From Acidobacteriota bacterium (lineage in GTDB: Bacteria; Acidobacteriota; Terriglobia; Terriglobales; Acidobacteriaceae): DNA of 35,540 nucleotides. The DNA lies in NCBI GenBank assembly GCA_021793405.1, contig JAJYSV010000043.1, positions 1 through 35,540 on the forward strand, read 5' to 3'. How positions within the stretch are numbered: position 1 is the stretch's first letter; each line of letters opens with the position of its first letter. The position numbers were made by a program, and so were the translations under genes. Positions 2,512 to 35,540 of the stretch are shown here, piece after piece. Under the pieces are notes generated by a model. It worked only from the letters and a program-made list of their open reading frames with translations, was not told where the DNA came from and searched no databases.

Positions 2512-2701
2512 CGAGTACTCCTCACGGAAAGGATGGTAGATTGCGTGAACTCCTACTCATTATCAGTATATTCAGTTCTTTTCACAAGCGGCACTCGGGC
2601 GACAACGGCTGCGGAGCGGAATTCTGTAGCTGTCTTCCAGGCCGTTCAGTGAACAGAGCTGAATGCTGTCAGTCGAAGGGAGTTGATGGAAGTGGCTTCC
2701 A

Positions 2702-3172: not shown

Positions 3173-3197
3173 AGCCTTGGAGGCTTATGCTCTAGCT
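3167..3197. terminator. Perfect 9-bp inverted repeat at the end of the ribF cluster (possible terminator)
   Basis: AGCTAGAGC at 3167-3175 pairs with GCTCTAGCT at 3189-3197 across a 13-base loop. The repeat overlaps both the stop codon of ribF (minus strand, 3192-3194) and the last codons of the transposase remnant. On the minus strand it is followed by CTGTTTGG, which is only a weak T-run. It could end the leftward ribF operon, or be a chance or insertion-related palindrome. Confidence 0.4.
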
Positions 3198-20608: not shown

Positions 20609-20685
<77 letters not shown>

Positions 20686-20721
20686 AAGAATCAACAACTT
20701 ACAAAGATTGCATTTCCAAAC

Positions 20722-20740
20722 TCACTCCCATTCACTCCCA
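20722..20740 (+). repeat. Two direct copies of TCACTCCCA between tRNA-fMet and integrase
   Basis: TCACTCCCA occurs at 20722-20730 and again at 20732-20740, a ten-base period (about one helical turn), in the 75-base gap between the tRNA 3' end and the integrase stop codon. The position fits an arm-type integrase or excisionase binding site. The repeat itself is certain; the role is inferred. Confidence 0.5.
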
Positions 20741-20760
20741 ATAAGAAAATCTGGTCATTT

Positions 20761-21906
20761 TCAGGCGCTCGCCTTCACAGGCTTGAGCACCATTTTGACC
20801 ACCTTCCCGTTGGCTTCCCGTTTCGATGCCGGCATGGCCTGACCGTAGACGTTCATCGTCGTCTGGATCGAAGCATGACGCATCAGTTCCTGCTGCACCT
20901 TCATCGGAGCACCTGTCTCATCGAGCCACGAACGATACGTGTGACGGAACGTGTGCCAGCCGATCGGTCCCAATCCAAGCCTGATCCCGATAGGCCGCAA
21001 GTGCCTCTTCTGGATCTCGGTCGGATAGTAAGGTCGGTTCGTGACCGGATTCGGAAATACCCAACCTTCTTGCGTCGGCGGGCATTCTTTACTCCAGGCA
21101 AGCAAAACCTCCAGCAAGGATTCATGAACAGGAACATGGTCTCGGGAATACTCCGTCTTCACGTCGTCCACGCGCCCATTCACGATGCTTCGTTGAACGA
21201 GCAGCAGTTGACCTTCAAAATCGAAGTCTTCCCATTGCAATGCCGCGATCTCGCTCACGCGAAGTCCGAGGCACTGGGCCACAATCACCATCGTGCGGAA
21301 CGGCTCTTTCAGTTCCGCAACAATCGTGTCAAAGGCTTCCACAGTGAGAATCACGGGACGCTTGCGGCGCTTGGTACAGTCCTTCACCCGCACCATCTCA
21401 ATGGGGTTGCGGCGCTCGTTGAAGAGTTCCCAGCGTGCTGCACATTCGTAGATCAGGTGCATTACGCCGCGGATATGCGCTTTCGTTTTGGGTGCCATAT
21501 CCATATTCTTCAACCAGCCCTCCACGGCCATGGGTCGAATCTGGCCGAGCAAGTATTCACCCCAACGGGGACGAATGTGCAATTTGATATTCGACAAGTA
21601 CGATTTCTGAGTGGAGTACCGCGCGGGCAGCTCTTCCTCGATGTACCGGTCGCAAAGTGCGGCAAAAGTCACCGTGCCTAGATGGTACTGTGGGTTTTCA
21701 GCGTTGAGTTTTAGGAGAATTGCTTCGACGGCTTTCCGTGCAAGAGCCTCGGTTTTGTACTGATTGGTGGTGCCGATAGAACGAGCCTTTCTGACTCGTG
21801 TTCCATTGGGGCCGCTCTCGTAGTACCGAAACTCCCAGACGTCGGCGCTCTTCGCCCGCTTCTTGAGCACTAAACTTCCGAATTGATATCGTGTGCGTGC
21901 AAACAA
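20761..21906 (-). CDS. int: Tyrosine-type site-specific integrase of a mobile element
   Basis: 381 residues. The N-terminus resembles an AP2-like/SAM-like arm-binding module (Y-E-S-G-P-N-G-T-R-V-R-K), then a core-binding domain around residues 65-165. The catalytic domain has G-L-R-V-S-E-I-A-A-L-Q-W (first Arg), then H-T-F-R-H-T-Y with the H-x-x-R pair, L-M-R-H-A-S-I-Q-T-T-M, and the nucleophile region N-V-Y-G-Q. All expected catalytic positions are therefore visible. It performs integration and excision by strand exchange at a tRNA attachment site. It ends 75 bases downstream of tRNA-fMet and reads toward it, the standard layout of an int gene at a left attachment site. An HTH excisionase-like gene lies just upstream. 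Confidence 0.94.
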   Translation of the reverse strand: MFARTRYQFGSLVLKKRAKSADVWEFRYYESGPNGTRVRKARSIGTTNQYKTEALARKAVEAILLKLNAENPQYHLGTVTFAALCDRYIEEELPARYSTQKSYLSNIKLHIRPRWGEYLLGQIRPMAVEGWLKNMDMAPKTKAHIRGVMHLIYECAARWELFNERRNPIEMVRVKDCTKRRKRPVILTVEAFDTIVAELKEPFRTMVIVAQCLGLRVSEIAALQWEDFDFEGQLLLVQRSIVNGRVDDVKTEYSRDHVPVHESLLEVLLAWSKECPPTQEGWVFPNPVTNRPYYPTEIQKRHLRPIGIRLGLGPIGWHTFRHTYRSWLDETGAPMKVQQELMRHASIQTTMNVYGQAMPASKREANGKVVKMVLKPVKASA

Positions 21907-22010
21907 GGGTTCCTCCTTGAATTCACGGCACAGATGGCTGACTCAAGGGTACGCTGAAGAAGCCTGTGCATTCCAGGCAAATTCAAGTCAGGCCCATGCT
22001 GTGCCTGGCG

Positions 22011-22244
22011 TCAGCTCGCCATTTTCTGTTGAATCCATTCGGCAAGCGTGGAAGGCAAAAAACGCCAGAGCTTGCCCACCTGCACGCCGGAAATCTGACC
22101 TCGGCGCACCATCCGCTGGAGCGTTCTGGGGTGAATGCCCAGAAACTTTGCGGCTTCATTGCTGTCGAGCAGCGGTTCTGCTCCTCGACCCAGCATCGGC
22201 AGCAATGGCTTGGACGGGACGGTTCTTTCTTTCAGGTCTGTCAT
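22011..22244 (-). CDS. Excisionase-like helix-turn-helix protein (MerR/HTH_17 type)
   Basis: 77 residues from the ATG at 22244, with CGGAGG about 6 bases upstream. The longer frame from 22322 lacks such a site. The core reads L-L-D-S-N-E-A-A-K-F-L-G-I-H-P-R-T-L-Q-R-M-V-R-R-G-Q-I-S-G-V-Q-V-G-K-x-W-R-F, split here between helix-turn-helix and wing; it is a textbook excisionase/DNA-binding domain with a final W-I-Q-Q-K. It probably acts as recombination directionality factor for the adjacent integrase, or as a small regulator of it. The int and this gene are on the same strand about 100 bases apart. Confidence 0.85.
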   Translation of the reverse strand: MTDLKERTVPSKPLLPMLGRGAEPLLDSNEAAKFLGIHPRTLQRMVRRGQISGVQVGKLWRFLPSTLAEWIQQKMAS

Positions 22245-22644
22245 GCGCGGCCTCCGTGAGTTTCCAGGCATCGCATGGACAGCTTGTATGCACACGCCAC
22301 GACGGCTGGAATCAAAAGACACCGATTATGCCCGTGATTTCACGAACATGATCTATAGATGAGGTTGATCCTTCTCGATGCAAGGCGTCCAATGAGTTTT
22401 GGGAATTCCATTATTCGCAGCGCGAATGAGTGACCGTTTTCTGCATGGCTCCAATCCCGCGCCGCCGCGAATTCCCAAAACAGTGTCAATAAGCGATGAA
22501 TTTTTTCTTCCACCGAAGAATCAAGGTTGACTATGGGCCGAGATTTCCACATACTGTGCAAAACGCGGCAACAATTAGCGTTATCAATAACATCTGCCAT
22601 GGCTAACTACCGAACTCTCTGGCTTGTGCTCCCCGGAGGTGGTT
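22245..22644. other. 400-base region between excisionase-like gene and LysR gene
   Basis: A leftward 86-codon open frame (22340-22600) lies here but has no ribosome-binding site at either of its ATG codons, and I recognise nothing in it. The region must contain the divergent start signals of the excisionase-like and lysR genes. Confidence 0.4.
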
Positions 22645-23595
22645 ATGTCTCGCAAAATGGAAGTCCGCTATTTCCTCGCGGCCATTGCTCTTGCAGAAGA
22701 GCTGAACTATACGCGTGCCGCGAATCGTGTCGGCCTCACCCAATCTGCTTTCAGCCGCCAGATTTTTGAACTGGAAGAACAAGCTGGCGTGCCCTTGTTC
22801 ACGCACGGTCATAAGAAAAAGGTAGAAATCACGGATGGCGGACGTGCGTTCGTTGCCGAAGCACGCGCCACTGTCATGCATGGAGAACGGGCCTTTCAAG
22901 TTGCCAAGGCTGCCGATCTTGGCACAGAGCATGTCCTGCGCCTGGGCCGTTCCCCGTACACAGACCCACAGTTGATCTCAAGAGCGCTCTCTCTGCATCT
23001 GCCGCTATACCCCAATCTGAATGTCCAGGTGAAGAGCGAGTTTTCCTGCGACTTGGCGCAGAGGCTCCTGTCCGCCGAAATGGACGTGGCGTTTATTACG
23101 CAGCCGCCAGAGACGCCACTGCTCACAACTGTATTGGTCGCACAGGCACCTTTGCATGTGGCGATGTCGGAAAGCCACGTGCTGGCCGCGAAGCAGACAT
23201 TGTCCATCAAGCACCTAACCGATACATGCTGGATTCTTTTTCAAAAGCAGGTCCATCCGCTGGTGTATGGGGCGATCGTGAATATCGCAGATTCAGACAA
23301 AGTCAGATATAAAAACATCCATCACATTGTCAATTCGGAGGAAGCGCTCCATCTCGTATCGGAGACTGGAGGAATCACTTTCCTGACCCAAGCCACAGCG
23401 ATGCGCAGCGCACGGCCAGGCATGGTCTTCCGTCCGCTGAGCGATCCTGCCTTGATGCTGGGTACGTACATGGCTGTACGTGCGGATAATTCTTCGCGCC
23501 TGGTCAGCGAATTCGTTCGAGCGTTTATGAAGAAGTCGGCACAGATGGCGCACGTTGCGACCGACGTGCAACTGCGTCTGCCAATGGGCGCATAA
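22645..23595 (+). CDS. LysR-family transcriptional regulator
   Basis: 316 residues from the ATG at 22645, which has CCGGAGGT upstream at good spacing. An alternative TTG-type start at 22624 is weaker. The N-terminal winged helix is typical: Y-F-L-A-A-I-A-L-A-E-E-L-N-Y-T-R-A-A, then L-T-Q-S-A-F-S-R-Q-I-F-E-L-E-E-Q-A-G-V-P-L-F. The C-terminal periplasmic-binding-protein-like domain has D-V-A-F-I-T-Q-P-P and a S-E-T-G-G-I-T-F-L segment. LysR proteins usually regulate a divergent neighbour in response to a small ligand; no convincing divergent gene is present. It lies in the island cargo upstream of the SIR2-HerA pair. Its target and ligand are unknown. Confidence 0.9.
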   Translation: MSRKMEVRYFLAAIALAEELNYTRAANRVGLTQSAFSRQIFELEEQAGVPLFTHGHKKKVEITDGGRAFVAEARATVMHGERAFQVAKAADLGTEHVLRLGRSPYTDPQLISRALSLHLPLYPNLNVQVKSEFSCDLAQRLLSAEMDVAFITQPPETPLLTTVLVAQAPLHVAMSESHVLAAKQTLSIKHLTDTCWILFQKQVHPLVYGAIVNIADSDKVRYKNIHHIVNSEEALHLVSETGGITFLTQATAMRSARPGMVFRPLSDPALMLGTYMAVRADNSSRLVSEFVRAFMKKSAQMAHVATDVQLRLPMGA

Positions 23596-24059
23596 CTACT
23601 ACATTTGGTTTGAGTAAGGCAGCCCTTCTTGGGCAGCTTCCGAGTCGGTGAAAATTCAGGAGTAGACGATTGGCGTGGGGCAGCGCGCACGCTCGCCAAG
23701 GCTTCCATTTGTGCAATGTTCTGTTCGCGCCAATGGAGATTCCGCTTGCTTTCGTGGGACAAGCAGATTCGTAAATACTGGCCGACCTCCCATTACTAAA
23801 CCAGACGTGGCAGTCTCAAAGCTGACATCTTAGTTAAAACGGAATCCACGAGTTCATTGAGATGAAGATCGGGTCCTTCACCGCGATCATAGGGGTGCCG
23901 TTGTCTATCGCTCGTGAGCGGGCCCTTTTGGGACACGCATGCACCGGCTTTGCATACAATTAGTGATGGGCTGATTCGTAGCGGGGTCGGGCGCAGGACT
24001 AAGGGCAGCGATAGTCGGCTGCACCACACCAACGAACAACGATTGGGGACAGCAACGCT
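23596..24059. other. 464-base intergenic region upstream of the SIR2-HerA operon
   Basis: No supported gene. Several short frames on the minus strand are Arg-rich, overlap the SIR2 start and are not protein-like. A TACAAT at about 23955-23960 could be a -10 box for the defence operon, but I see no good -35 at the right distance. Confidence 0.4.
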
Positions 24060-25100
24060 ATGGCACGTGTATTCAACCTTGACACGGCGGCTGAGGACAT
24101 TCGCAAGAACCTCGCTCGGTCGTTCCAATCCGCCAACATCAACTTTCTGATTGGCTCAGGTGCGTCGTATCCAGCAATCCCATCAGCAGGCGCTGTGGAA
24201 GAAGAAATCGCCGCCCTCTTTGAGTCGGACGATGAAAATGCAGCCTATCTGAAGCTATACGATTTTCTTGCGACCATCCAGGCTCCGACGAACCGCCTTA
24301 TCGCGGGTGCCACCGATGCCAATAACACGACGACCGTCGCGAACTACACGGATTACCTCGGCATTATCGAAGCGATCCTCGGCGAACGACGCACTTCGCT
24401 GCTGCCTAAGCATGCAACGATCTTCGCGACGAACTATGATCTATTTATTGAACAGGCATCGCTTTCATACGCAGCCATGCGACTGAACGACGGCTTTAGC
24501 CGCGTGCCCAGCCTTACGGGGCGTGCGGAATTCTCCTCACGAACATTTTTCACGACAACCTCAAGCACGGGGAACCTTTATAACTATAAGGTCGATATCC
24601 CTTGCATTAACCTCATAAAACTGCACGGGTCGCTTTCCTGGAAAAAGGATGGGGACAGCATTCTCTTCTCAGTGGAGAACAGCGCCCTCTTACCAGGCAC
24701 GAAGACGGCTGCGCAGGCGAAAACGTTCGTGGATACATTTGCGGTTGTTTTACCTCATGCTGAAAAGTTTCACAAGACATTGATGGACGACACTTACTAT
24801 GAGCTTCTTAGGATTTATCAAAATGAGTTGGATCGCGAAGGAACTTTGCTGGTTTCTTTCGGATTCTCGTTCGGGGATTCTCACATCCTCGGGATCACCA
24901 AACGTGCACTGAGGAACCCGACGCTCAGGTTAGTCGCATTTGCGTTCAAGGATGCGGATCGGGAGACATTCCTTGAGCGATTCGACGGTTACAACAACGT
25001 CGACATCATCGCACCCGGCACCCTCACAAACATAGACTTCGCTAAGTTCAATGGGGTGTTGCGGGGCATTCTACCGGGCCTTGCCGAGAAGAAAAAATGA
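24060..25100 (+). CDS. SIR2-domain NADase-type effector of a SIR2-HerA defence pair
   Basis: 346 residues. The N-terminal Rossmann-like SIR2 domain has the nucleotide motif N-F-L-I-G-S-G-A-S-Y-P (residues 28-38). The catalytic Asn lies in F-A-T-N-Y-D (N125, D127) and the His in K-L-H-G-S-L-S-W (H189). A later V-S-F-G-F-S-F-G-D-S-H-I (about residues 266-277) is the conserved SIR2_2 C-terminal strand. In phage defence such proteins hydrolyse NAD+ and so shut the infected cell down. The HerA gene starts inside its last codons (ATGA overlap at 25097-25100), a strong sign of a translationally coupled two-gene system. Nothing else is fused to it. The effector function is known for the family, not tested here. 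Confidence 0.9.
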   Translation: MARVFNLDTAAEDIRKNLARSFQSANINFLIGSGASYPAIPSAGAVEEEIAALFESDDENAAYLKLYDFLATIQAPTNRLIAGATDANNTTTVANYTDYLGIIEAILGERRTSLLPKHATIFATNYDLFIEQASLSYAAMRLNDGFSRVPSLTGRAEFSSRTFFTTTSSTGNLYNYKVDIPCINLIKLHGSLSWKKDGDSILFSVENSALLPGTKTAAQAKTFVDTFAVVLPHAEKFHKTLMDDTYYELLRIYQNELDREGTLLVSFGFSFGDSHILGITKRALRNPTLRLVAFAFKDADRETFLERFDGYNNVDIIAPGTLTNIDFAKFNGVLRGILPGLAEKKK

Positions 25101-26953
25101 ACGTCACAAAACTCACTCAAGACGCTGTTCTGAGAATCGGCGAGGTCGCAGCTGTCGACGGGCGGAGAATCTACGTCCTTGTTGACAAGAACAAGAACCT
25201 CTCCGACATATTTCTCGATGGCGACATATTGAGAAACATATCTGTCAACAGTTATATCGAAATACGTAAGGGCTTCCTGAGCCTTATAGGCAGGGTAGAA
25301 GGCGAAAAGATCGAAGAAGACTATCCTGCTCCGACTAATGAGAAAGTCGAATTCGCGAACAGGAACAAACGAATATTGACCGTGGCACTTTCTGGATACA
25401 TAGACGAGCACGGCAAGTTTACTGGTGGAACGAAGGAACTGCCCCTAATCGGAAACGAAGCGTACATCGTTACCCGAGAGAAGATAAATCGAGTCCACAA
25501 TCTCATTCAAGACGATGGCTCACCGTCCATTGTGATAGCGAGCATCGAAGGGCACGATTTCGATATCGAGCTTCCGGTAGATGGATTGTTCAACAGCCAT
25601 ATCGCCATTTTTGGCAATACGGGTAGCGGCAAGTCCAATACGCTTGCGTATCTCTACCAGGAATTCGTGCGCGTCATGACGGCGCGAAACGCTACGGCCT
25701 TCTCAGAGAAGGCGCGCATTCTGCTGTTGGACTTCAATGGAGAGTACACAGATCCTCAATGCATATCGCCCAGCAAGAAGGTCTACAGTCTTTCAACGCG
25801 TGGGGCTGGGGCCGACAAGCTGCCGATGAAAGAAGACGACCTCCTGAACATCGAAGTCATCTCGATTTTGGCAGATGCAACCGAGAAGACTCAAAAGCCC
25901 TTTTTAAGTAGAGCCGTGCGATTCTACAAGAAAGTAATGAACGCAAACGATGGAGACCCTGAGGGGTACATTAAGAACATCCTGCGTAACCGCGTGAAAG
26001 ACGTTTTACAAATGAGCGATAAAGTCCGCGCGTTCCTGCTTCTTGACTACTTTAGAGAGATATTGCCTTCTGAGGACGCGCATGGTGATCCGGTGGATAT
26101 TGCCTCTGATTTGACGTGGCACAACACGGCTAATGAATTCTGTATTAGACCGGCTGTTGCCGGTAACTACCTCGCACAAAACCCTAATCGCATCACAGAC
26201 ACATATCTTTATAAATACATCGATACTTTTACGCTTGGTGACAGTTTTCTCTCTAGGCTCATCGTATTTTTATATCTGCAATTAATCCACGACGTTCTCG
26301 CAAACCGGGCGCAGAACGAGCATGTTGTGCACGTGATAAACAGGCTAAAGGCAAAGAAAGGCGACATTGACAAGATTTTCGACTTGGGGAGTGGTGCGGC
26401 CTTTTGGCAAAGCAACTTTGTTGTCGTTAGCCTGACGGACGTCAATCTAGAGATGAAAAAGACTTTGCCACTGTTGCTAGCCAAGAAGCTCTACTCGGAG
26501 CAGAAAGAAACGGGACAAGACAGGTCTCTAAGCATCGTGATCGACGAGGCGCACAATATTCTTTCCACGGAATCCTTCCGTGAATCGGAGAGCTGGAAGG
26601 ATTATCGATTAGAGACTTTCGAGGAGATAATCAAAGAAGGCAGAAAATTCGGCGTATTTGTTACGATTTCTAGTCAGAGACCGAACGACATTTCACCCAC
26701 GATCACATCGCAGGCCCATAACTACTTCATACATAGGCTCCTGAACGAGCGTGACCTAAAGGCGATTGCGAGCGCCGTTTCGTACATAGACCGGGTTACG
26801 GAGGAGTCCATACCGACATTGCCAACGGGAACCTGTATTTTCAGTGGCATCGCGAGCCCGATGCCGTTGAAGATAAATGTAAAACCCCTCCTCGGGGATG
26901 CTCGGCCGCAAAGCGAAACACGTAAATTCGGCGTCATTGTTCCACTGGCGTGA
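25097..26953 (+). CDS. herA: HerA/FtsK-type ATPase partner of SIR2
   Basis: 618 residues. Residues 5-165 look like the HAS-barrel region of HerA. The Walker A is G-N-T-G-S-G-K-S (173-180), followed by L-L-L-D-F-N-G-E-Y. The Walker B is L-S-I-V-I-D-E-A-H (478-486) with the catalytic Glu present. The sensor/arginine motif I-S-S-Q-R-P (524-529) and H-R (546-547) complete a hexameric DUF87/HerA ATPase core. A helical insert sits between 260 and 430. In known SIR2-HerA systems the ATPase assembles with the SIR2 subunit and couples DNA or nucleotide sensing to NAD+ loss. It overlaps the SIR2 gene by 4 bases. Confidence 0.92.
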   Translation: MNVTKLTQDAVLRIGEVAAVDGRRIYVLVDKNKNLSDIFLDGDILRNISVNSYIEIRKGFLSLIGRVEGEKIEEDYPAPTNEKVEFANRNKRILTVALSGYIDEHGKFTGGTKELPLIGNEAYIVTREKINRVHNLIQDDGSPSIVIASIEGHDFDIELPVDGLFNSHIAIFGNTGSGKSNTLAYLYQEFVRVMTARNATAFSEKARILLLDFNGEYTDPQCISPSKKVYSLSTRGAGADKLPMKEDDLLNIEVISILADATEKTQKPFLSRAVRFYKKVMNANDGDPEGYIKNILRNRVKDVLQMSDKVRAFLLLDYFREILPSEDAHGDPVDIASDLTWHNTANEFCIRPAVAGNYLAQNPNRITDTYLYKYIDTFTLGDSFLSRLIVFLYLQLIHDVLANRAQNEHVVHVINRLKAKKGDIDKIFDLGSGAAFWQSNFVVVSLTDVNLEMKKTLPLLLAKKLYSEQKETGQDRSLSIVIDEAHNILSTESFRESESWKDYRLETFEEIIKEGRKFGVFVTISSQRPNDISPTITSQAHNYFIHRLLNERDLKAIASAVSYIDRVTEESIPTLPTGTCIFSGIASPMPLKINVKPLLGDARPQSETRKFGVIVPLA

Positions 26954-27354
26954 TGGACAGCGCGGGAAGCTTTGCCTTGTCACGGGCAACGACGGGTTCC
27001 CCGTGTTGGCCTACTTTCGCAAACAGCATAAGCACTCATTGAGCATCTGCTACGAGCGATTCTCAGGATCACTCCCCTTAAACGCCAATGTCGCCAGAAA
27101 TGGTTCTCGGTTGATGCAAAATCGCCTTCTCGTGAACTGGGCCTCATGGAGACGCTCAGTTGAGGACGCCATCGCGGACACGCGGGCAGATCGCTGGCGA
27201 GTGACGCGTTACTCGGAGACAATCGGCGGATCGACGCGGCAAGCAGTGTCAAGGCAGTTACTGGGTGCCTACAAGCACGTCGGGTGGGCAGAGTCGGGCC
27301 TGACGCGGAGCGGCAGCACGTAAGAGGGCGGGAACGACGGGCTGGCATAAGAAA
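26954..27354. other. 401-base region after HerA
   Basis: One rightward frame stays open from inside the HerA 3' end to 27323 without a good start or recognisable motif; a leftward frame also spans most of it. Neither is convincing. The only clear element is the parB-side terminator at its right edge. Confidence 0.4.
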
Positions 27355-27379
27355 ACGGAGCCTGTGTTGCAGGCTCCGT
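27355..27379 (-). terminator. Intrinsic terminator of the parB-like gene
   Basis: ACGGAGCCTG (27355-27364) pairs perfectly with CAGGCTCCGT (27370-27379) around TGTTG. On the minus strand the stem is followed by TTTTC. It stands 20 bases past the stop of the leftward ParB-like gene. Confidence 0.85.
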
Positions 27380-27398
27380 CAAGGTTTGGTTGTTGGAA

Positions 27399-28994
27399 TT
27401 ATGCAGCGGTGGTCTTCTTCGCTGGTTTGGGTTGCGCTTTCGGACTCGCCTTCTTTGCAGCTTGCGCCTTCTCTTTCGCGGTGAACTCCTGCTTCACTTT
27501 GAGAGCGATGGCGTCAGTGTCCACCTTATAATGCTCGGCTGCTTCCTTGAGCACGTTGCTGGCATCCGGCTGCGTCCGCGCTGAATGGAGAATGACCATC
27601 TCCATCAGCAGCCGTGCGAGTTCGCCTTCCTCGGCTTTGCGGATGTAGGCAGATAGCAGCCTCGGAATCGAGTCACTGTCTTTTGCCTTCTTGATGCCGC
27701 GATTGCGGGCGACAACCTCCAGCCGCCGTTCGTCCAGCATGGTTGCAACCCGTTCCACGATAAAAAGCAGGTCGCGTTTCATCAGCCGCACGGGAACGGC
27801 GGCGACAATGGCATTCAGGACGCGCAAGCCAGTTGCCTGGGCCAGTGCTTCCTCGCGACGCTGCTTCTCCTGCTCGGCCTTCCCATTGGTATCTGTGGTA
27901 GGCTTCTGCTTTTTGGGGTGGTGAACCGGGCAGTTCGCATCGGCACAGATTTTGCGGAGTTCGCCTTTCTCGGTGCCTTCCGTGATGATGGCCTCGGTCG
28001 TGGATTTGCAAGTCTTGTACTCCGGCCAGTCGCGCTGCTTGTTGTTCTGCGGTTTCTCCTGCTTGATCTCGATGTACTGGTTGCGCGGGATGGCCGCGCT
28101 ACCTGCGGCTGGTTGGCCGTAAGCAGCGGAGATTTGTACCAGCTTTGGTTTCGCCGCGAGGGTCTTCGCAACGTGCGCGTCCACCTTGGTCTGGTAGCAA
28201 GCGGGGTCGGTACAAGCGTCCTGCTGAATGTCCGCAAATAGCAGCTTGTTGTGTCCCGTCCGCTTGGGACAATCGAGACAAGCGCCAGCTTGTGGGTTGA
28301 GGGTCGCGTCACTTTTGGAAAATGGCGCGTCCTTCAAGATAAGTAGGATGTTGTGTTCGATCCATTGCTGGAGATTGCGGACGGGGAGCAAGATACGTTT
28401 GCTCTTGCTGCCGCCTCCCCAGTCTTCACGGAAGCAAGCGGCGAGTGCCTGTTCCTGTTCTGCTGGCTGGAGTTTTGCCAGTAGCAGCGCATGGCCAACG
28501 CCGATTTCATCTTTGTAAAATGCCTCGACCACTGCCGGAGAAAGTTCCGTCAGCTTAAGGCGTTGCGCGACATAGGTGGGTGATTTTCCTGTCTTGGCCG
28601 CGATCTGCTCGATGGAGTATTTCGGCTCCTCCAGATTGAGCAAAGCGCGGAAACCCTGCGCTTCCTCCAGTGGATGCACGTCCCGCCGCTGGAGATTCTC
28701 GATCAACTGCGCCTCCAGTGCTTCCGCGTCGGTAAGGTTGACGATGCGGACGGGGATGGTTTCAGACTCGGCCATTTGCGCGGCGCGGTAACGCCGTGCT
28801 CCGGCAACGATCTCGAAGCTGCGTTCATTCAAAGGCCGCACAAGCAGGGGCGAGAGAACGCCCTGACTGCGAATGCTTGCGGCCAGTTCTTTGAGGGCCG
28901 CATCCTCGAAGATGCGGCGTGGGTTGGTCTTCGATTCGGTCAATACGGCGAGTGGAAGGTTGCGGTATTCGCTGGTTGCGATAGAGGTAGACAT
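27399..28994 (-). CDS. ParB/RepB/Spo0J-family protein with cysteine clusters
   Basis: 531 residues from an ATG with AAAGGAG upstream. The N-terminal ParB/sulfiredoxin-like nucleotide domain shows T-N-P-R-R-I-F, G-V-L-S-P-L-L-V-R-P and the G-A-R-R-Y-R-A box (65-71), then E-N-L-Q-R-R-D-V-H-P-L-E-E. A KorB/ParB-type HTH follows (Y-S-I-E-Q-I-A-A-K-T-G-K-S-P-T-Y-V). Unlike Spo0J, it carries cysteine pairs that look metal-binding: C239/C242 with C261/C266, and C350-x4-C355-x2-H358-H359. The tail is Lys/Ala/Pro-rich. No parA is adjacent. This type is found on plasmids and integrative elements, where it may aid stability or regulate transfer genes. The gene lies 80 bases after ardC on the same strand. 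Confidence 0.85.
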   Translation of the reverse strand: MSTSIATSEYRNLPLAVLTESKTNPRRIFEDAALKELAASIRSQGVLSPLLVRPLNERSFEIVAGARRYRAAQMAESETIPVRIVNLTDAEALEAQLIENLQRRDVHPLEEAQGFRALLNLEEPKYSIEQIAAKTGKSPTYVAQRLKLTELSPAVVEAFYKDEIGVGHALLLAKLQPAEQEQALAACFREDWGGGSKSKRILLPVRNLQQWIEHNILLILKDAPFSKSDATLNPQAGACLDCPKRTGHNKLLFADIQQDACTDPACYQTKVDAHVAKTLAAKPKLVQISAAYGQPAAGSAAIPRNQYIEIKQEKPQNNKQRDWPEYKTCKSTTEAIITEGTEKGELRKICADANCPVHHPKKQKPTTDTNGKAEQEKQRREEALAQATGLRVLNAIVAAVPVRLMKRDLLFIVERVATMLDERRLEVVARNRGIKKAKDSDSIPRLLSAYIRKAEEGELARLLMEMVILHSARTQPDASNVLKEAAEHYKVDTDAIALKVKQEFTAKEKAQAAKKASPKAQPKPAKKTTAA

Positions 28995-29074
28995 GATGGC
29001 TTCTCCTTTGTGTGGACGTGCGTGGATAGGGAGAGCGGACAGCCGTTGGCCGTCCGCCCATTGGTTGCGGTGGA

Positions 29075-29983
29075 CTAGCTGGCGGCTGCCATTGCATCTT
29101 GCGGTTGCTGTTCCTCCGTCTCCGGCTTCGTTTCCAAAGCGGCCAGAATGACGGCAGAGGCTTTCTGGATGACCTCAAGGCTTTCAGCCAGCAGCGATGC
29201 GTTGCCGTGGTAAAGCTGGATGTAATCGGCGGACGCGGTTCCCGTCTGGAGGCCAACGGCCTTGCTCACTACAAACGCGATGGCCTCGGCTTCGGTCTCG
29301 CGGACTGTCTTGGTGGTCTGAGTGCGGCGTTCGGCTTTGTGCAACATCTCGTGAGCTAACTCATGCACAAGGGTTGCGAACTCCTCGGCCTTCGACTGAC
29401 CGGGAAGCAAAACAATCTTGCCACCATAGCTCATGCCCATTGCTGGCGCGATGCGTTCGTTGAACTCCAGCTCGATGCCTTGCGCGGTGATGAAGTCAAT
29501 TAGACGGTCGCGCTGTTCGCCGACTTCGCCCTTTACGCCGTCCATGCCGGGAAGTTCTTTGCCTTCGGTCTGCAAAACATCGAAGACATAGACGGCGCGA
29601 AAGCCAACTAAGACAGGCACGTTTTGTTTGGTGATGTCCTGCTCTGCCTCGGCATCCTTCTTGCGCTTGGTGCCGATCATGGGCGCGAGAATTTGAATGC
29701 CTTTCTCGCCTTTCTTCACGCGGCGACCAAGCTGGTTCCACGCATACAGTCCGGCAACGCGGGTTGCATCGGGCTTCTGGCGTGCAATCTGGAGAATGTT
29801 TCCAAAGCTGTAGTTGTGAAAGTTACTCATGGCTGTCAGATACGCCGTGAGTGAGTCGCTCTGTCCCGCCTCAAGCTGCTCGATGAGGAAGTCCACATTT
29901 TCGCGGATGAGTTTCTGCGTCGCGTTTTCATTGCGCGGCGTGCCTGTGCTGTTGCTGCTGCGATTGTTGTTGGTTGATAACAT
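29075..29983 (-). CDS. ardC: ArdC-family antirestriction protein (ssDNA-binding domain plus metallopeptidase)
   Basis: 302 residues from the ATG at 29983, directly after AAGGAG. A longer frame from 30142 is not protein-like. The N-terminal ssDNA-binding domain has S-N-F-H-N-Y-S-F-G-N-I-L and V-A-G-L-Y-A-W-N-Q-L-G-R-R-V-K-K-G-E-K-G-I. The C-terminal zincin-like domain has H-E-L-A-H at 207-211 and the downstream glutamate ligand region E-T-E-A-E-A-I-A-F (230-238). ArdC proteins from plasmids protect incoming single-stranded DNA and can blunt type I restriction. It begins about 500 bases from hsdR, transcribed away from it, so it is probably a transfer gene of the element. The parB-like gene follows. 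Confidence 0.9.
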   Translation of the reverse strand: MLSTNNNRSSNSTGTPRNENATQKLIRENVDFLIEQLEAGQSDSLTAYLTAMSNFHNYSFGNILQIARQKPDATRVAGLYAWNQLGRRVKKGEKGIQILAPMIGTKRKKDAEAEQDITKQNVPVLVGFRAVYVFDVLQTEGKELPGMDGVKGEVGEQRDRLIDFITAQGIELEFNERIAPAMGMSYGGKIVLLPGQSKAEEFATLVHELAHEMLHKAERRTQTTKTVRETEAEAIAFVVSKAVGLQTGTASADYIQLYHGNASLLAESLEVIQKASAVILAALETKPETEEQQPQDAMAAAS

Positions 29984-30014
29984 TGTTTTTCTCCTTGGTG
30001 TCCCGTTTGGGAGT

Positions 30015-30047
30015 GGTTTGTCCTTCACAAAGCGCAGCGGACAAACC
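30015..30047. repeat. Perfect 9-bp inverted repeat GGTTTGTCC/GGACAAACC upstream of ardC
   Basis: GGTTTGTCC at 30015-30023 and GGACAAACC at 30039-30047 with a 15-base loop. A smaller palindrome TCCC-gttt-GGGA stands at 30001-30012 and CCCG-gacgaa-CGGG at 30046-30059. They lie within 80 bases of the ardC start, in its leader or promoter. Confidence 0.6.
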
Positions 30048-30114
30048 CGGACGAACGGGCACCAAGGCAGAACGAGGGCAGCGGAGGTGGGAGGCTGGAG
30101 GGTGGGCGCGGCAA

Positions 30115-30142
30115 GTGCCAAACACGTACCATCGTTTGGCAC
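30115..30142. repeat. Perfect 9-bp inverted repeat GTGCCAAAC/GTTTGGCAC (operator or origin candidate)
   Basis: GTGCCAAAC at 30115-30123 and GTTTGGCAC at 30134-30142 are separated by ten bases, giving a centre-to-centre distance of 19 bases, suited to a dimeric regulator. It could be the operator of ardC or hsdR, or part of a transfer origin. It does not match the canonical chromosomal parS sequence. Confidence 0.55.
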
Positions 30143-30174
30143 GCAGACGGCGCTGGCCCGAACGGACGCAGAAA

Positions 30175-30207
30175 GGCCCGTTCAGCGCAGCTTCATGCGC
30201 TGGGCCG
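30175..30207. repeat. Interrupted hairpin GGCCC/AGCGCA with TGCGCT/GGGCC
   Basis: AGCGCA-gcttca-TGCGCT forms the inner stem. Flanking GGCCC and GGGCC extend it with a four-base bulge (GTTC) on the left arm. It is the last of four hairpins in the ardC-hsdR spacer. Confidence 0.4.
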
Positions 30208-30499
30208 TCACCGGAGCGGCACGAAGTGGAAAAAAGACGCGCGCAGCGCCTACTGAGCTTTTGTTTTGAAGTCACGACATTTCGATTTGGGATCACTCAG
30301 GACGCTGGAAGTGGCCTCAAATGTAGACATGCAGTGGGGATACAAAGACATCCGTTGATCGAGAGCAGTCCCGTGGCGCGACGGTGAGTGCTATGCTTAT
30401 ATCCGCAAGATGCTGAACGGGAATGCCTTAATAGCGAGCCGGCAGGATCGTTTTTTCAGTCCGAAAGTACAGGCCAGCGTCCAGATTCTCTGACGAATT

Positions 30500-33031
30500 A
30501 TGAAAGAAGCGACAGCACGCATCAAGATCAATCATCTCCTCAATGCAGCGGGGTGGCGCTTCTTCCCGGAAGGCAAGCAGCCAGCGAATATACGGCTGGA
30601 GCAGACTGTCAACATCACCGAAAGTGAACTGGATGCTCTCGGTCAGGATTTTGAAAAGACGACGAAGGGTTTCATCGACTTTCTCTTGCTCAACGAAAAG
30701 GGCTTCCCGCTGATCGTCCTTGAAGCGAAGGCCGAAGACAAGAATCCTTTGGTCGGCAAGGAGCAGGCTCGTCGCTATGCACGCTCGCAAAATTGCCGTT
30801 TCGTGATTCTCTCGAATGGAAATCTCCACTACTTCTGGGACCTGGAGCGTGGAAATCCATACGTTATAACTTCTTTTCCGTCACCGGTATCCGTGGTCAG
30901 CTATCAGCACGTCACGCCCGATCCGCAGCGCATTGTCGAGGAACAAGTAAAGGACGACTATATTGTTCTCACACAACGTCCGGGGTATCAATCTGAGGCA
31001 GCGTGGCTGAATCAGGCCGAGCGTTCTGACTTTATCGCGACCAACAGGCTGCGATTTCTTCGGCCTTACCAAATAAGAGCCGTACATGCAGTCCAGTCAG
31101 CGGTTCAGACAGGCAAAGACAGATTCCTGTTTGAAATGGCGACAGGCACAGGAAAGACACTTACCGCCGCCGCAATCATCAAACTCTTTTTGCGCTCTGG
31201 GAATGCCGGGAGAGTTCTCTTTCTCGTAGATCGCCTGGAACTTGAGGATCAGGCAAAGAAGGCTTTTGCCGCCGTCCTCTCCAACGACTACAAGACCGTT
31301 ATCTTCAAGGAGAATCGGGACGACTGGCGACATGCTGAAATTGTTGTCAGCACTGTTCAGTCCTTTCTCTTTAACAATAAGTATCAGACGCTCTTTTCGC
31401 CGACTGATTTTGACTTCGTCATCTCCGACGAAGCACATCGCTCTATAGGCGGAAATGCTCGTGCCGTCTTTGACTATTTCATCGGCTACAAGCTCGGCCT
31501 GACGGCAACGCCACGGGATTACCTCAAGAAGTTTGACAGAGTGAATCCCAAGACGAAAGACCCTGGGGAGTACGAGCGGCGTCTCCTGCTCGATACCTAC
31601 AGAACCTTTGGATGCGAGGATAGCCAGCCGACGTTTCGCTACACCTTGCTGGATGGCGTCAAGGATGGCTACCTCATCAATCCAACGATTGTCGATGCCA
31701 GGACTGGTATCACCACGCAGCTTCTGTCGGAGCAAGGCTTCGTCGTCGATTTCAAGGATGAAAACGGCGGCGATCAGAGTGCCAGCTACAGGCAAAGCGA
31801 GTTTGAGCGCAAGTTTTTTGCCGATGCGACGAACAAGCTGTTTTGCAAGACATTCCTTGAACACGCTTATCGCGATCCCATCAGTGGCGAGATCGGGAAG
31901 TCCATCATCTTTGCCGTGAGCCAGAACCACGCCGCGAAACTGGCGCAGATTCTCAATCAGATGGCGGACATCATGTTTCTGGGGAAATATCAGTCGGACT
32001 TTGCTGTACAGGTCACGTCACAGATTGATAACGCGCAGCAGATGACCATCAACTTTACGAACAATAAACTGCTTGGCTCAGGAAATTTCATTTCCTCATA
32101 CAAGACCAGCAAGGCTCGCGTCTGTGTCACTGTTGGCATGATGACAACCGGTTACGATTGCCCGGACATCCTGAATTTGGGTCTTTTCCGGCCAATCTTT
32201 TCTCCAACAGATTTTATCCAGATTAAAGGTCGGGGCACGCGCAAGCACAGCTTTCCTGAAGAGCTTTTCGATGATGCGCACAAGGCAGACATCGCGGCTT
32301 TAGAGAAAACCGCGTACAAGCTATTCGACTTCTTCGCCAACTGCCAATACTTTGAAGAGGAGTTCAACTACGACGAGGTCATCAGGCTCCCGAAACCCAC
32401 TGGACCGGGAGAGCCCGTAGAAGGCGGCACCCCAGTCATAATCGGGGGCACCTACGATCACGCCGGCGACGATATTCTTTCGACTATTAAAGAGGAGGTC
32501 GTTGGACCGGAGGGGATGCGGATCGACCGCATGTTCTTCGCTCGGTTTGAAGACGCGGTTCGAGAGAATCCAATCATTGCAGCCAGTGTGGAAGCGGGCC
32601 AGTGGGATCGCGTGATTGACTACATCAATCGAGAGGTGTTCGATAAACCATCAGAGTTCTACACGCTCGACAAACTTCGCCGGGCCGCAGATGTAGATCG
32701 GCGACTCACGCTGCGGGAGATTCTTGAAAAGGTCTTCGGCTTGATTCCGCGCTTCAAATCCAAGGATGAGCTTCTGGAAGAAGAGTTCGCCAAGTTTGTC
32801 GCCGATTACAAGCCAGAAGAGTCGGAGGCGATTCCCGCAATTAAAAATTACTTCAAGGCTTACGTTTCCAGCGATCAGATTCGGCACATTATTGAGACCA
32901 AAGACTACGCTGATTTAGCGACCAATTCCATTCTCTCCAGCCGCGACTTCAAAGAGGTTCCGGTGGCCTACAGGACGCTCATTCCTGAATACATCAAGGA
33001 CTACGTCTCATTGAATCAGTTCGCTCCATAG
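30500..33031 (+). CDS. hsdR: Type I restriction enzyme HsdR (EcoEI-like) subunit
   Basis: 843 residues. The N-terminal nuclease core has F-I-D-F-L-L (D60) and V-L-E-A-K (E75, K77), the PD-(D/E)-x-K pattern. The helicase motor follows, with R-P-Y-Q-I-R-A-V, Walker A A-T-G-T-G-K-T (about 214-220), D-E-A-H (310-313), then T-A-T-P and D-E-A-H-R-S-I-G-G. Later motifs include M-M-T-T-G-Y-D-C-P-D and I-Q-I-K-G-R-G-T-R, the motif VI region. The C-terminus matches the EcoEI-type helical domain. HsdR translocates DNA and cuts at a distance when the recognition site is unmethylated. Its stop is 8 bases before the start of the hsdMS fusion gene, so the two form an operon. Confidence 0.95.
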   Translation: MKEATARIKINHLLNAAGWRFFPEGKQPANIRLEQTVNITESELDALGQDFEKTTKGFIDFLLLNEKGFPLIVLEAKAEDKNPLVGKEQARRYARSQNCRFVILSNGNLHYFWDLERGNPYVITSFPSPVSVVSYQHVTPDPQRIVEEQVKDDYIVLTQRPGYQSEAAWLNQAERSDFIATNRLRFLRPYQIRAVHAVQSAVQTGKDRFLFEMATGTGKTLTAAAIIKLFLRSGNAGRVLFLVDRLELEDQAKKAFAAVLSNDYKTVIFKENRDDWRHAEIVVSTVQSFLFNNKYQTLFSPTDFDFVISDEAHRSIGGNARAVFDYFIGYKLGLTATPRDYLKKFDRVNPKTKDPGEYERRLLLDTYRTFGCEDSQPTFRYTLLDGVKDGYLINPTIVDARTGITTQLLSEQGFVVDFKDENGGDQSASYRQSEFERKFFADATNKLFCKTFLEHAYRDPISGEIGKSIIFAVSQNHAAKLAQILNQMADIMFLGKYQSDFAVQVTSQIDNAQQMTINFTNNKLLGSGNFISSYKTSKARVCVTVGMMTTGYDCPDILNLGLFRPIFSPTDFIQIKGRGTRKHSFPEELFDDAHKADIAALEKTAYKLFDFFANCQYFEEEFNYDEVIRLPKPTGPGEPVEGGTPVIIGGTYDHAGDDILSTIKEEVVGPEGMRIDRMFFARFEDAVRENPIIAASVEAGQWDRVIDYINREVFDKPSEFYTLDKLRRAADVDRRLTLREILEKVFGLIPRFKSKDELLEEEFAKFVADYKPEESEAIPAIKNYFKAYVSSDQIRHIIETKDYADLATNSILSSRDFKEVPVAYRTLIPEYIKDYVSLNQFAP

Positions 33032-33039
33032 AGGACATA

Positions 33040-35448
33040 TTGTTAGATACGAACACGAAACGAAGGATCGATACTGCGCGAGACATTCTCGTAGGCAAGG
33101 TGCCTGACCCAAAATCCCAAGTGGAACAGATTACCATCGCCCTCATCTACAAGTTCATGGATGACATGGACGCAGAATCGGAGGAGATGGGTGGAAAGCG
33201 AAAATTCTTCACCGGGAAATTTGCGCGCTACGGCTGGGCAAAGCTCATGCGTTCTGGTCTCGGCGGACATGAGATGCTCAATCTTTATGCGGAAGGCATT
33301 ACCAAGATGCCGGAGAACCCCGGCATCCCGCTGCTGTTTCGAGAAATCTTCAAGAATGCCTACCTGCCGTATCGTGACCCGGAAACGCTGAAGAGCTTCC
33401 TCAAGATCATCGACGAATTCAGTTATGACCATTCCGAGCGTCTCGGCGATGCCTTTGAGTATCTGCTCTCTGTTCTGGGTTCGCAGGGGGATGCTGGTCA
33501 GTTTCGCACGCCGCGCCACATCATCGACTTTATTGTGGCAGTCGTCGATCCCAAGAAGAATGAAACCATTCTCGATCCGGCCTGTGGCACGGCTGGCTTT
33601 TTAATCTCGTCCTACAAGCACATCCTCAGTGCTAACACGGATGCCAAAGGTAAGGTCAAGCTCACGCCGGATGAGAAGGCCCGTCTCGCCCGCAACATCA
33701 AGGGTTACGACATTTCCCCGGACATGGTGCGTCTCTCGCTGGTGAATCTGTACCTGCATGGCTTTCCTGATCCGCACATCTACGAATACGACACACTTAC
33801 ATCGGAAGAGCGCTGGAAAGAAACTGCCGATGTCATTCTTGCCAACCCGCCTTTTATGTCTCCGAAGGGCGGCATCAAGCCCCACAAGCGTTTCTCCATT
33901 GATGCCAAGCGCAGCGAAGTTCTTTTCGTGGATTACATGGCCGAACATCTCACGCCCACTGGCCGAGCCGGAATTATTGTTCCCGAAGGCATCATCTTCC
34001 AGAGCCAAGGTGCTTACAAAGACCTACGGAAGATGCTCGTAGAAAACTCCCTGGTTGCCGTGGTCTCGCTCCCGGCGGGCTGCTTCAATCCCTACTCTGG
34101 CGTAAAGACTTCCCTTTTGATCCTCGATAAGTCCCTCGCCCGGCAGAGCGATACCATCGGCTTCTTCAAGGTAGAAAACGATGGCTTCGGTCTGGGTGCC
34201 CAGCGCCGCGCCATCGAAAAAAATGATTTGCCGCAGGTCAAAGCTGAACTCGACCTTTATCTCCGCGCACTGCGGAGCCGTGAGTCGCCCGCCGATCTCC
34301 AACTGACTTACGGGCTGATCGTGCCAAAAGCAAAGATCGCAGCGAATGGCGATTACAATTTCAGTGGCGAGCGGTATCGCGAGGGTGTAGTGAGTACGCA
34401 TTCCTTTCCGCTCATTTTTCTTGGCGAAGCTGGCCTGTTCCGTGTGGAAAGTGGCGGGACTCCAAAGTCAGACATGGAAGAATATTGGAATGGAGGAATT
34501 CCATGGGCGACATTGGTGGATCTTCCAGCAACGGACTTCATATCTGAGATCTTCACTACGAAGCGGACTATTTCGGAACAAGGACTGCGCGAATCCGCTG
34601 CGAAGATGATCCCGGCAAACTCAGTCATAGTTTCGACTCGTGCGACGATTGGACGCATTGCTATCAACCGCGTTCCCATCGCGACAAATCAGGGATTCAA
34701 GAACGTCGTGATCGAAGATTCGACGCGGGCGGTGCCGGAGTATGTGGCACTCGCGCTCACTAAGCTTGTGCCTACTATGGAAGCGTGGGCGACAGGTGGC
34801 ACGTTCGCGGAGATTTCAAAATCCAAATTCTGTGAACTCCAAATCCCACTGCCGCCGCTGGAGGTGCAGAAGGAGATCGTGGCGGAAATTGAGGGCTACC
34901 AGAAAGTCATCGACGGTGCCCGCGCCGTCCTCGACAACTACCGCCCCCACATCCCCATCCATCCCGACTGGCCAATGGTCCCACTTGGCGAGCTGTGCGA
35001 GAAAATTCAATATGGACTCTCGGTTCCACTAAATACGGAAGGTTCAGGCTTCAAAACGTTTCGTATGAACGAACTTGTCGAGGGAAGTTGTGTTGATCGG
35101 GGCGAAATGAAGTGCTCCGAAATCTCAGCCAATGAGTTCAATAAATACCGGCTCACACGCGGAGACGTTCTCTTCAATCGCACGAATAGCTTTGAGCATG
35201 TAGGCCGGACCGGAATTTTCGATTTGGAAGGTGAATACTGTTTCGCGTCATACCTGATCCGGCTCATAATCTTAAAAGGCTACGCTGATCCTTTCTATGT
35301 CAACGCCTTCATGAACTCGGACGGCTTCCAGCAAGGGATCAAGCAATTTGCCAGTCGCGCGATTGGCCAGTCGAACATCAATGCCAAATCGCTTGCGAGC
35401 TATCCCATTCCTCTTCGTAAGCGTCCGGCTCTCGCCGTATGGACATAA
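33040..35448 (+). CDS. hsdM: Fused type I HsdM-HsdS (methylase plus specificity) protein, altered C-terminus
   Basis: 802 residues. The TTG start follows GAGGA. Residues 1-175 are the HsdM helical N-domain. The SAM motif I is L-D-P-A-C-G-T-A-G-F-L (178-188) and motif IV is N-P-P-F (269-272), marking an N6-adenine methylase. From about 455 the sequence is HsdS: a first target-recognition domain (S-G-G-T-P, E-Y-W-N-G-G-I-P-W), then a coiled-coil spacer L-P-P-L-E-V-Q-K-E-I-V-A-E-I-E (about 604-618), then a second domain starting W-P-M-V-P-L-G-E-L (645-652). This second domain ends at S-N-I-N-A-K-S-L-A-S-Y-P-I-P-L (residue 792), then R-K-R-P-A-L-A-V-W-T and stop, without the usual final helix. 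A fused MS subunit would need only HsdR to complete the enzyme. Confidence 0.9.
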   Translation: MLDTNTKRRIDTARDILVGKVPDPKSQVEQITIALIYKFMDDMDAESEEMGGKRKFFTGKFARYGWAKLMRSGLGGHEMLNLYAEGITKMPENPGIPLLFREIFKNAYLPYRDPETLKSFLKIIDEFSYDHSERLGDAFEYLLSVLGSQGDAGQFRTPRHIIDFIVAVVDPKKNETILDPACGTAGFLISSYKHILSANTDAKGKVKLTPDEKARLARNIKGYDISPDMVRLSLVNLYLHGFPDPHIYEYDTLTSEERWKETADVILANPPFMSPKGGIKPHKRFSIDAKRSEVLFVDYMAEHLTPTGRAGIIVPEGIIFQSQGAYKDLRKMLVENSLVAVVSLPAGCFNPYSGVKTSLLILDKSLARQSDTIGFFKVENDGFGLGAQRRAIEKNDLPQVKAELDLYLRALRSRESPADLQLTYGLIVPKAKIAANGDYNFSGERYREGVVSTHSFPLIFLGEAGLFRVESGGTPKSDMEEYWNGGIPWATLVDLPATDFISEIFTTKRTISEQGLRESAAKMIPANSVIVSTRATIGRIAINRVPIATNQGFKNVVIEDSTRAVPEYVALALTKLVPTMEAWATGGTFAEISKSKFCELQIPLPPLEVQKEIVAEIEGYQKVIDGARAVLDNYRPHIPIHPDWPMVPLGELCEKIQYGLSVPLNTEGSGFKTFRMNELVEGSCVDRGEMKCSEISANEFNKYRLTRGDVLFNRTNSFEHVGRTGIFDLEGEYCFASYLIRLIILKGYADPFYVNAFMNSDGFQQGIKQFASRAIGQSNINAKSLASYPIPLRKRPALAVWT

Positions 35449-35540
35449 GCGTGTGCGTGGGCGACGATCTGTTTGTGAGCGATGCGATTGAAGTTGGTGT
35501 GGATGGTGGCCGGGCGAAGCGGGTGTATCGCACGGCGGAG

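Follow-up and report, generated by a model that had tools for sequence, protein, structure and literature searches.

The DNA studied here (the window, that is, the whole stretch of 35540 bases, which runs to the contig end) is contig JAJYSV010000043.1 of the Acidobacteriota bacterium assembly GCA_021793405.1. It is referred to as contig C35 of its own genome (G000), and loci of relatives carry L numbers. Near its end lies a Type I restriction-modification locus consisting of an hsdR-like gene and, 8 bases further on, an uninterrupted 802-codon frame with a TTG start (33040-35448, forward strand) that joins the methylase (HsdM) and specificity (HsdS) parts and is called hsdMS below. The coordinates of the features are given in Table 1.

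The domain search of the 802-aa protein with Pfam showed N6_Mtase at residues 133-448 (2.7e-48) and two stretches of Methylase_S, the better of which covers residues 465-620 (1.5e-27). Likewise, PADLOC matched its Type I methyltransferase model to residues 5-451 and specificity models up to residue 792; the PADLOC collection already includes one long model, MTase_I, of 932 positions, and positions 744-887 at its far end match the S part of the window protein. These results bear out the preliminary description of this DNA, which had read an HsdM-HsdS fusion in a single frame with HsdR immediately upstream. The translation of the hsdR-like gene, read by eye, contains D60...E75-A-K77 and GTGKT, and its length is similar to that of the uncut HsdR frames of relatives, most of which have about 840-870 aa. 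The best NCBIfam model, EcoAI/FtnUII, scored 217.6 bits, below the cut-off of 550, so no Type I subfamily was assigned. For fusions with one or two target recognition domains (TRDs) and a separate HsdR, the name 'Type IMS' was proposed by Roberts et al. 2012 in the part of the paper cited here (PMC3510504), and a separate HsdR with nuclease and superfamily 2 motor is present in the window. Type ISP and Type IIG were rejected, as the Pfam search of the 802-aa protein revealed neither a nuclease nor a helicase domain and HsdR is a separate gene.

Table 1. Features of the hsdMS locus, of the inserted element and of the island, with examples of a gene found downstream in relatives. Positions are those of the window unless a locus is named.
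Feature	Position	Strand	Basis
Open frame of disrupted hsdMS, 802 aa; native codons to 35415	33040..35448	+	Open reading frame (ORF), Pfam, placement of the insertion sequence end
HsdM part, residues 1-448; catalytic motifs DPACGTAGF at 179-187, NPPF at 269-272	33040..34383	+	Pfam N6_Mtase 133-448; alignment
TRD1 of HsdS, about residues 465-602	34432..34845	+	Pfam Methylase_S 465-620; up to 90% identity to relatives
Central conserved helix (CR1) of HsdS, residues 603-634	34846..34941	+	phmmer with CR2 query; helix 611-637 in L045 model
TRD2 of HsdS, residues 639-792, last native residues	34954..35415	+	PADLOC Specificity_I 644-792; 151-aa match to Pseudanabaena L052 (80% identity)
8-bp target duplication TCCTCTTC	35409..35416	+	Second copy behind the right end of the insertion sequence on G000:C51
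Left end of IS66-like insertion sequence (GTAAGCGTCCGG...), cut by contig end	35417..35540	+	7 left and 6 right ends in own genome; terminal inverted repeat 12/12
First 34 codons of tnpA of the insertion sequence, which share 10 bases with the end of the hsdMS frame	35439..35540	+	Longer copy on C135: HTH_Tnp_1 8e-10
HsdR-like restriction/motor subunit, 843 aa	30500..33031	+	Pfam ResIII 1.5e-38, HSDR_N 7.2e-09
tRNA-Met; last 45 bases (20641-20685) repeated exactly at G000:C51:25260-25304 (att sites)	20609..20685	+	Exact repeat search
Tyrosine integrase of the island carrying the system	20761..21906	-	Pfam Phage_integrase 1.4e-19
HEPN-like gene of about 245 aa, examples in relatives	L082:7087-7821; L116:7036-7782; L119:4716-5459

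The gene was compared with 90 relatives, namely 80 loci from species genomes and 10 from a viral collection, with 3.7-12.6 kb taken per locus. A scan of 84,980 species genomes gave at least 596 pattern matches and at least 559 relatives, of which the best 80 were used; as the query was the 802-aa fused protein, this set is biased toward fused forms. Native coding ends after residue 792 (35415; 35416 is the first base of codon 793), and residues 793-802 (RKRPALAVWT) are encoded from the junction with an insertion sequence (IS), although some tblastn alignments against relatives extend to residues 794-800. The fusion described earlier as one 802-residue protein is therefore real, but the protein is not complete. 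The intact relative in genome G174, a fused protein of 860 aa with 60% identity, diverges from the window protein at residue 792. The C-terminal conserved helix (CR2) was detected by phmmer in 80/90 relatives and is absent from the window protein; two such helix matches after residue 500 were found in 75/90. The preliminary description was right that both TRDs lie in the frame, but the second half-domain lacks its conserved helix: the 802-aa product reads TRD1-CR1-TRD2, and CR2 is located on another contig, C51. Type IMS membership applies to the interrupted gene and not to the 802-aa product.

A search of the own genome for the missing C-terminus gave one match at C51:131-262 (70% identity, 9.8e-16), the next having E=2. 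Contig C51 starts with the right end of the IS, ...CCGGACGCTTAC, followed by TCCTCTTC and then by the remainder of HsdS; the frame behind the IS reads PLPPFAMQQAIVAEIEAEQ... and fits the relatives. Among the six contigs that carry a right end, TCCTCTTC is present in 8/8 positions on C51 only, and by our arithmetic, with equal base frequencies, the chance of an exact 8-base match with six right ends is about 6 in 65,536. Because of the shared 8-base duplication and the frame of the tail directly behind the right end, the fragments on C35 and C51 are regarded as the two ends of one gene.

The first view of the locus was that the 802-aa frame is a complete, working two-TRD enzyme whose odd C-terminus is natural variation. 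The frame is indeed open, both TRDs are present, and one relative, L121, also has 802 aa; L121, however, keeps the CR2 tail. At the position of the last ten residues, 78 of the 80 helix-bearing relatives agree with the window protein in 0/10 places and the other two in 1/10, and the C51 remnant agrees with the same 80 in a mean of 6.4/10. Moreover, from 35417 onward the bases are the same as at other contig ends, whose flanks are unrelated, and the missing tail lies on C51. A complete enzyme is thus largely refuted and highly improbable.

The last 124 bases of the window recur at other contig ends of the own genome, all beginning GTAAGCGTCC behind unlike flanks. The repeat start GTAAGCGTCCGG was placed by script in seven left ends (C35, C59, C89, C14, C137, C50 and C135), each with a different flank, and the right end CCGGACGCTTAC on C51 is its inverted repeat in 12/12 positions. 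According to the cited part of a study of Frankia (PMC11946415), IS66 ends start with GTAAGCG and have inverted repeats of 20-30 bp and direct repeats of 8 bp; the window element is alike in its GTAAGCG ends in inverted repeat, but the exact repeat, of 12 bases, is shorter. The flanks of two left ends have an exact 8/8 partner (C35-C51 and C135-C18), which is the 8-bp target duplication, and two further pairs agree in 7/8 positions (C59-C103 and C89-C38). The 34 tnpA codons in the window alone gave no Pfam match. Contig C108 carries a degraded IS66 relative with TnpB_IS66 (5.4e-15) and an IS66 transposase fragment. The assembly lacks the inside of the intact element, which is therefore called IS66-like. 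The last 141 bases of the window, for which a plasmid origin was looked for, had no match in PLSDB at E<=1e-5.

The joining of C35 and C51 into one island does not depend on the 8-bp duplication, because it is also indicated by the exact 45-bp att repeat. This repeat of the tRNA-Met end occurs once in C35 and once in C51, in the same direction, and no tRNA gene was called at the C51 copy. The island extends over window positions 20609-35540 and G000:C51:124-25304. Besides the integrase, it carries genes for ParB and ArdC on the window and for TrwC relaxase, TrwB coupling protein, TrbL, TrbI, CagX and a VirB4-like protein on C51, so that integrase, att repeats, relaxase, coupling protein and type IV secretion genes of an integrative conjugative element are all present. 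As judged from these sequences, one predicted integrative conjugative element has its two ends on C35 and C51 and is split in the assembly by the IS inside hsdMS. Among 200 genomes, 82 of which matched at E<=0.001, a close hsdMS copy was found in G174 alone, a member of the same class, and none of those of the same genus or family holds one; this patchy distribution is in keeping with a mobile island.

Taken together, the window holds hsdR and the 5' nine-tenths of a two-TRD Type IMS hsdMS that an IS66-like insertion has disrupted, both carried by an integrative conjugative element; we give this reading a probability of about 0.85. Several observations weigh against this. No read or contig spans the element, and the adjacency of C35 and C51 is derived from two independent repeats. 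Of the seven IS left ends, two have an exact 8-base partner, two a 7/8 partner and three (C14, C137 and C50) neither. The interior of the window IS is not assembled, and IS66 TnpB was found in the own genome only in the degraded relative on C108. There is also a third, imperfect copy of the tRNA end on C99 (93% over query 1-71), where no tRNA was called, and an uninterrupted copy of hsdMS may exist in the population. Truncated HsdS can also work as dimers, as described for EcoR124I-delta50 and the EcoDXXI Tn5 mutant in the cited passages of a 2013 review (PMC3874165).

If repeat ends had been misjoined in the assembly, the true gene would be uninterrupted or located elsewhere, and it is true that the contig ends inside a repeat and that no sequence spans it. 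However, the 8-base duplication is exact with one right end only and has the reading frame of the tail directly behind it, and the exact 45-bp att repeat joins the same two contigs, which makes such a chimera a very remote prospect. The case of the disrupted gene shows that an insertion-truncated gene at a contig end can be mistaken for a complete protein when read from raw sequence.

The position of the break was placed on an AlphaFold2 model of the intact relative L045 (843 aa), built from an alignment of 52 rows (51/90 relatives and the window protein) with a mean predicted local distance difference test score (pLDDT) of 85.2 and a predicted template modelling score (pTM) of 0.54. The HsdS part of the model was superimposed on 1YF2 with a VIA Z of 29.3 (373 residues, root-mean-square deviation (rmsd) 4.1), and the M part on 2OKC with a VIA Z of 33.3 (404 residues, rmsd 4.7). 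In the model, CR1 is helix 611-637 and CR2 is helix 797-835, and residue 792 of the window protein aligns with residue 794; on this model, the insertion removes the whole CR2 helix. According to the cited passages of PMC3874165, the two conserved helices of HsdS form an antiparallel coiled coil that spaces the TRDs.

Going by general knowledge of Type I enzymes, in the intact relatives HsdR would join the methylase core as the motor-nuclease, each TRD would recognise one half of a bipartite DNA target, and CR1 and CR2, running antiparallel, would together form a clamp that sets the distance between the TRDs and provides the seat of the M domains. The enzyme would methylate adenines, and unmethylated DNA would be translocated and cut. 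An enzyme of two polypeptides, as previously suggested, suits these relatives but not the window allele, which is disrupted by the IS66-like element. Without CR2, the clamp could not close within one chain, and the enzyme would neither methylate nor restrict; HsdR without a methylase core is taken as inert, so that the cell would survive the loss. Because the CR2 helix is lost and the coiled coil has the role described above, loss of function of the window allele is, given the insertion, quite probable.

Instead of inactivating the enzyme, the insertion might have altered it: the truncated chain would pair with itself through CR1, TRD2 would be idle, and a palindromic TRD1 target would be methylated, as in the EcoDXXI hsdS Tn5 mutant. 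Besides the precedent of that mutant and of EcoR124I-delta50 (PMC3874165), an engineered M-half-S fusion is an active dimer in the cited part of PMC6158711. Moreover, the window CR1 is intact, and 5/90 relatives (L054, L057, L080, L086 and L130; 645-671 aa, one C-terminal match to the conserved helix) look like natural single-TRD MS proteins. However, the known truncations, as far as these sources describe them, end after CR1 or within TRD2, whereas here a whole TRD2 without its helix remains; in its cited passages, the 2013 review knew homodimers from Type IC only (PMC3874165). The window CR1 also matches the CR2 query only at positions 1-32 of 45, and the single-TRD forms reach positions 44-45. 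A changed specificity is on this balance unlikely, and loss of function is preferred.

Within this lineage, the fusion of M and S is the normal state. Among the best 80 of the at least 559 relatives, which by record titles are spread over many phyla, the methylase ORF has at least 800 aa in 69/80 loci, 640-799 aa in 8 and fewer in 3, and an HsdR-like frame lies upstream in 76/80; in the viral collection, the corresponding numbers are 7/10 for a methylase ORF of at least 800 aa and 10/10 for HsdR. A search of 396 genomes of the phylum with the HsdM part alone, which is free of the bias of the fused query, gave nine matching genomes at E<=1e-60. Eight of them, the window genome included, are close relatives (72-100% identical) whose frames are open over 819-912 aa; the ninth has 39% identity and a frame of 737 aa. 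A missed stop/start junction between M and S at residues 440-455 was rejected, as the relatives are fused (69/80, and 8/8 of the close ones in the 396 genomes). The preliminary description had taken the fusion to be much less common than separate genes; within this lineage it is the rule, and the layout has had its name since 2012. The window gene is an ordinary, broken member of the known Type IMS layout. Six relatives without the C-terminal helix (L071, 410 aa; L085, 597; L092, 536; L114, 661; L055, 813; L088, 691) were also observed; either frequent broken alleles or assembly errors may be behind them.

In the plasmid search, 2291 records matched, 18 of which cover at least 80% of the query in one place. 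The best of the 25 listed is pPZ02 of Paracoccus zhejiangensis (51.6%), in which an HsdR-like gene precedes the match. All 24 others come from E. coli and match residues 1-617.

Although M and S are fused, the TRDs have been exchanged between relatives. The M part of the window protein has a BLAST match in 90/90 relatives with a median identity of 84%, and CR1 in 85/90 with 90%. TRD1, however, has a match in 43/90 and TRD2 in 52/90, the latter with a median identity of 28%. The window TRD1 reaches 90% identity with part of L048, and TRD2 reaches 80% with part of L052. The six best TRD1 matches (L048, L049, L051, L054, L046 and L053) and the six best TRD2 matches (L052, L044, L056, L123, L064 and L045) have no member in common. 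Since the M part is conserved, TRD matches are sparse and the two lists are disjoint, the sequences indicate that the TRDs are reassorted between conserved blocks inside the fused gene. The earlier proposal that the fusion limits the swapping of specificity does not agree with these numbers.

The known system nearest in design is the EcoKI M-S fusion of Roberts et al. 2012, in which HsdM is likewise fused in frame to a two-TRD HsdS and HsdR is separate; in the cited part of that paper it was active in vivo and needed extra HsdM in vitro (PMC3510504). That fusion is engineered, whereas the window type is natural and lineage-wide, the window allele being truncated by the IS. Moreover, no second HsdM ORF was found in the stretches taken from the 90 loci, in contrast to the HsdM that had to be added to the EcoKI fusion. 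According to the cited part of PMC6158711, fusions of a Staphylococcus aureus enzyme, M-half-S included, are active. In the open-access literature, searched mostly by title, these two papers on engineered enzymes alone concern an M-S fusion, as far as their cited parts go, which is not proof that natural HsdMS fusions are undescribed, and the term 'Type IMS' was found in one paper of the literature searched. The Staphylococcus xylosus system, considered as a candidate natural fusion, was rejected, as it has separate genes in the cited part of its source.

Among structures, the best Foldseek match of the L045 model was PDB 7eew (E 5.7e-26), a single chain of 638 aa from V. vulnificus YJ016, which we take to be the methyltransferase of Seo et al. 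2022. The VIA comparison gave a Z of 30.9 over 582 residues with an rmsd of 34 and 18-19% identity. This protein resembles the window type in having the M and S functions in a single chain (the entry is titled 'intact MTase'), but its 638 residues would leave room for one TRD only. The E. coli plasmid NZ_CP116482.1 (L043) encodes an M-half-S fusion of 677 aa, annotated as N-6 DNA methylase, with 47.6% identity to window residues 1-617. Like the window, it has an HsdR-like gene upstream; unlike the window, its fusion has single-TRD length and a TrlF-family ATPase gene follows downstream. This plasmid is IncF-typed, and the genes for HsdR, the fused methylase and the ATPase lie beside the transfer region. 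EcoDXXI hsdS::Tn5 is similar to the window in that a transposable element truncates a Type I specificity part, but in the passages cited it has separate M and S, the insertion lies inside the C-terminal TRD and the product retains activity, on a new palindromic target (PMC3874165).

The same passages call the 1:2 ratio of M to TRD in AloI-type enzymes a mystery (PMC3874165). Among the relatives of the window gene, natural two-TRD fusions with no separate HsdM in sight come from many phyla, while the engineered EcoKI enzyme depended on added HsdM in vitro (PMC3510504). A speculative and unlikely proposal is that natural two-TRD Type IMS enzymes would be (MS)2 with HsdR and without free HsdM, so that two of the four TRDs in each particle would be in excess and may recognise another target; in the window allele, the IS66 insertion would have removed the closing helix and left an (MS)2 paired through CR1 with a new palindromic TRD1 target. 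Pairing through CR1 alone, if true, would mean that transposition had altered the specificity of a fused enzyme. The family is more useful than the window gene in this respect, as intact loci allow a direct test of an assembly with one M to two TRDs.

Downstream of hsdMS, 27/90 loci carry a gene for a protein of mostly about 245 aa, which in 15/27 begins within 12 bases of the hsdMS stop. The alignment comprised 21/27 copies (L059, L069, L073, L091, L101 and L125 were omitted because they were partial, too long or dispensable; the L047 copy contains unknown residues), and R125, N126 and H130 (R-N-x3-H) are invariant in it. The structure model (pLDDT 93.1) had no Foldseek match at E<=0.001. Among Foldseek candidates compared with VIA, the best rows were 2hsb (Z 8.2, 114 residues, rmsd 3.8) and the HEPN domain of sacsin (Z 8.0, 120 residues, rmsd 4.0). 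Of the first 16 rows, 7 have HEPN in their titles. Scores of this size can arise by chance between helical bundles. The Pfam model HEPN_RiboL-PSP matched below the cut-off (0.0032 and 0.034), PADLOC and NCBIfam gave nothing usable, and none of the papers listed in a literature search dealt with such a gene by title or abstract. The motif and the model make this protein a plausible candidate for a HEPN RNase that is coupled to these Type IMS systems. The gene downstream of hsdMS in G174 had no match in the own genome of the window at E<=0.01.

Several minor observations concern the mobile elements. A stretch at G000:C28:36510-36630, 70% identical to the IS left end, is contig-internal and lies beside a LysR-like frame (by eye); it is perhaps an old remnant. 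Given the 7/8 pairs and the left ends without a partner, rearrangement through the IS element is possible. The C99 copy of the tRNA-Met 3' end and downstream bases (G000:C99:17709-17780, reverse strand; L158) may be what is left of a related island.

The island carries several defence-type genes, as C51 encodes an SMODS/DncV-like nucleotidyltransferase (a cyclase of the type of cyclic oligonucleotide-based antiphage signalling systems) and an AAA_15 ATPase, at 2426-3565 and 21568-23478, respectively. In the window, positions 24060-26953 hold a defence-type pair of SIR2-like and HerA/DUF87 genes (PADLOC SIR2 6.2e-113, HerA 1.4e-204). An ArdC-type antirestriction gene (Pfam ArdcN; 29075-30142, reverse strand) belongs to the mobile element as well and is separated from hsdR by 357 bases.

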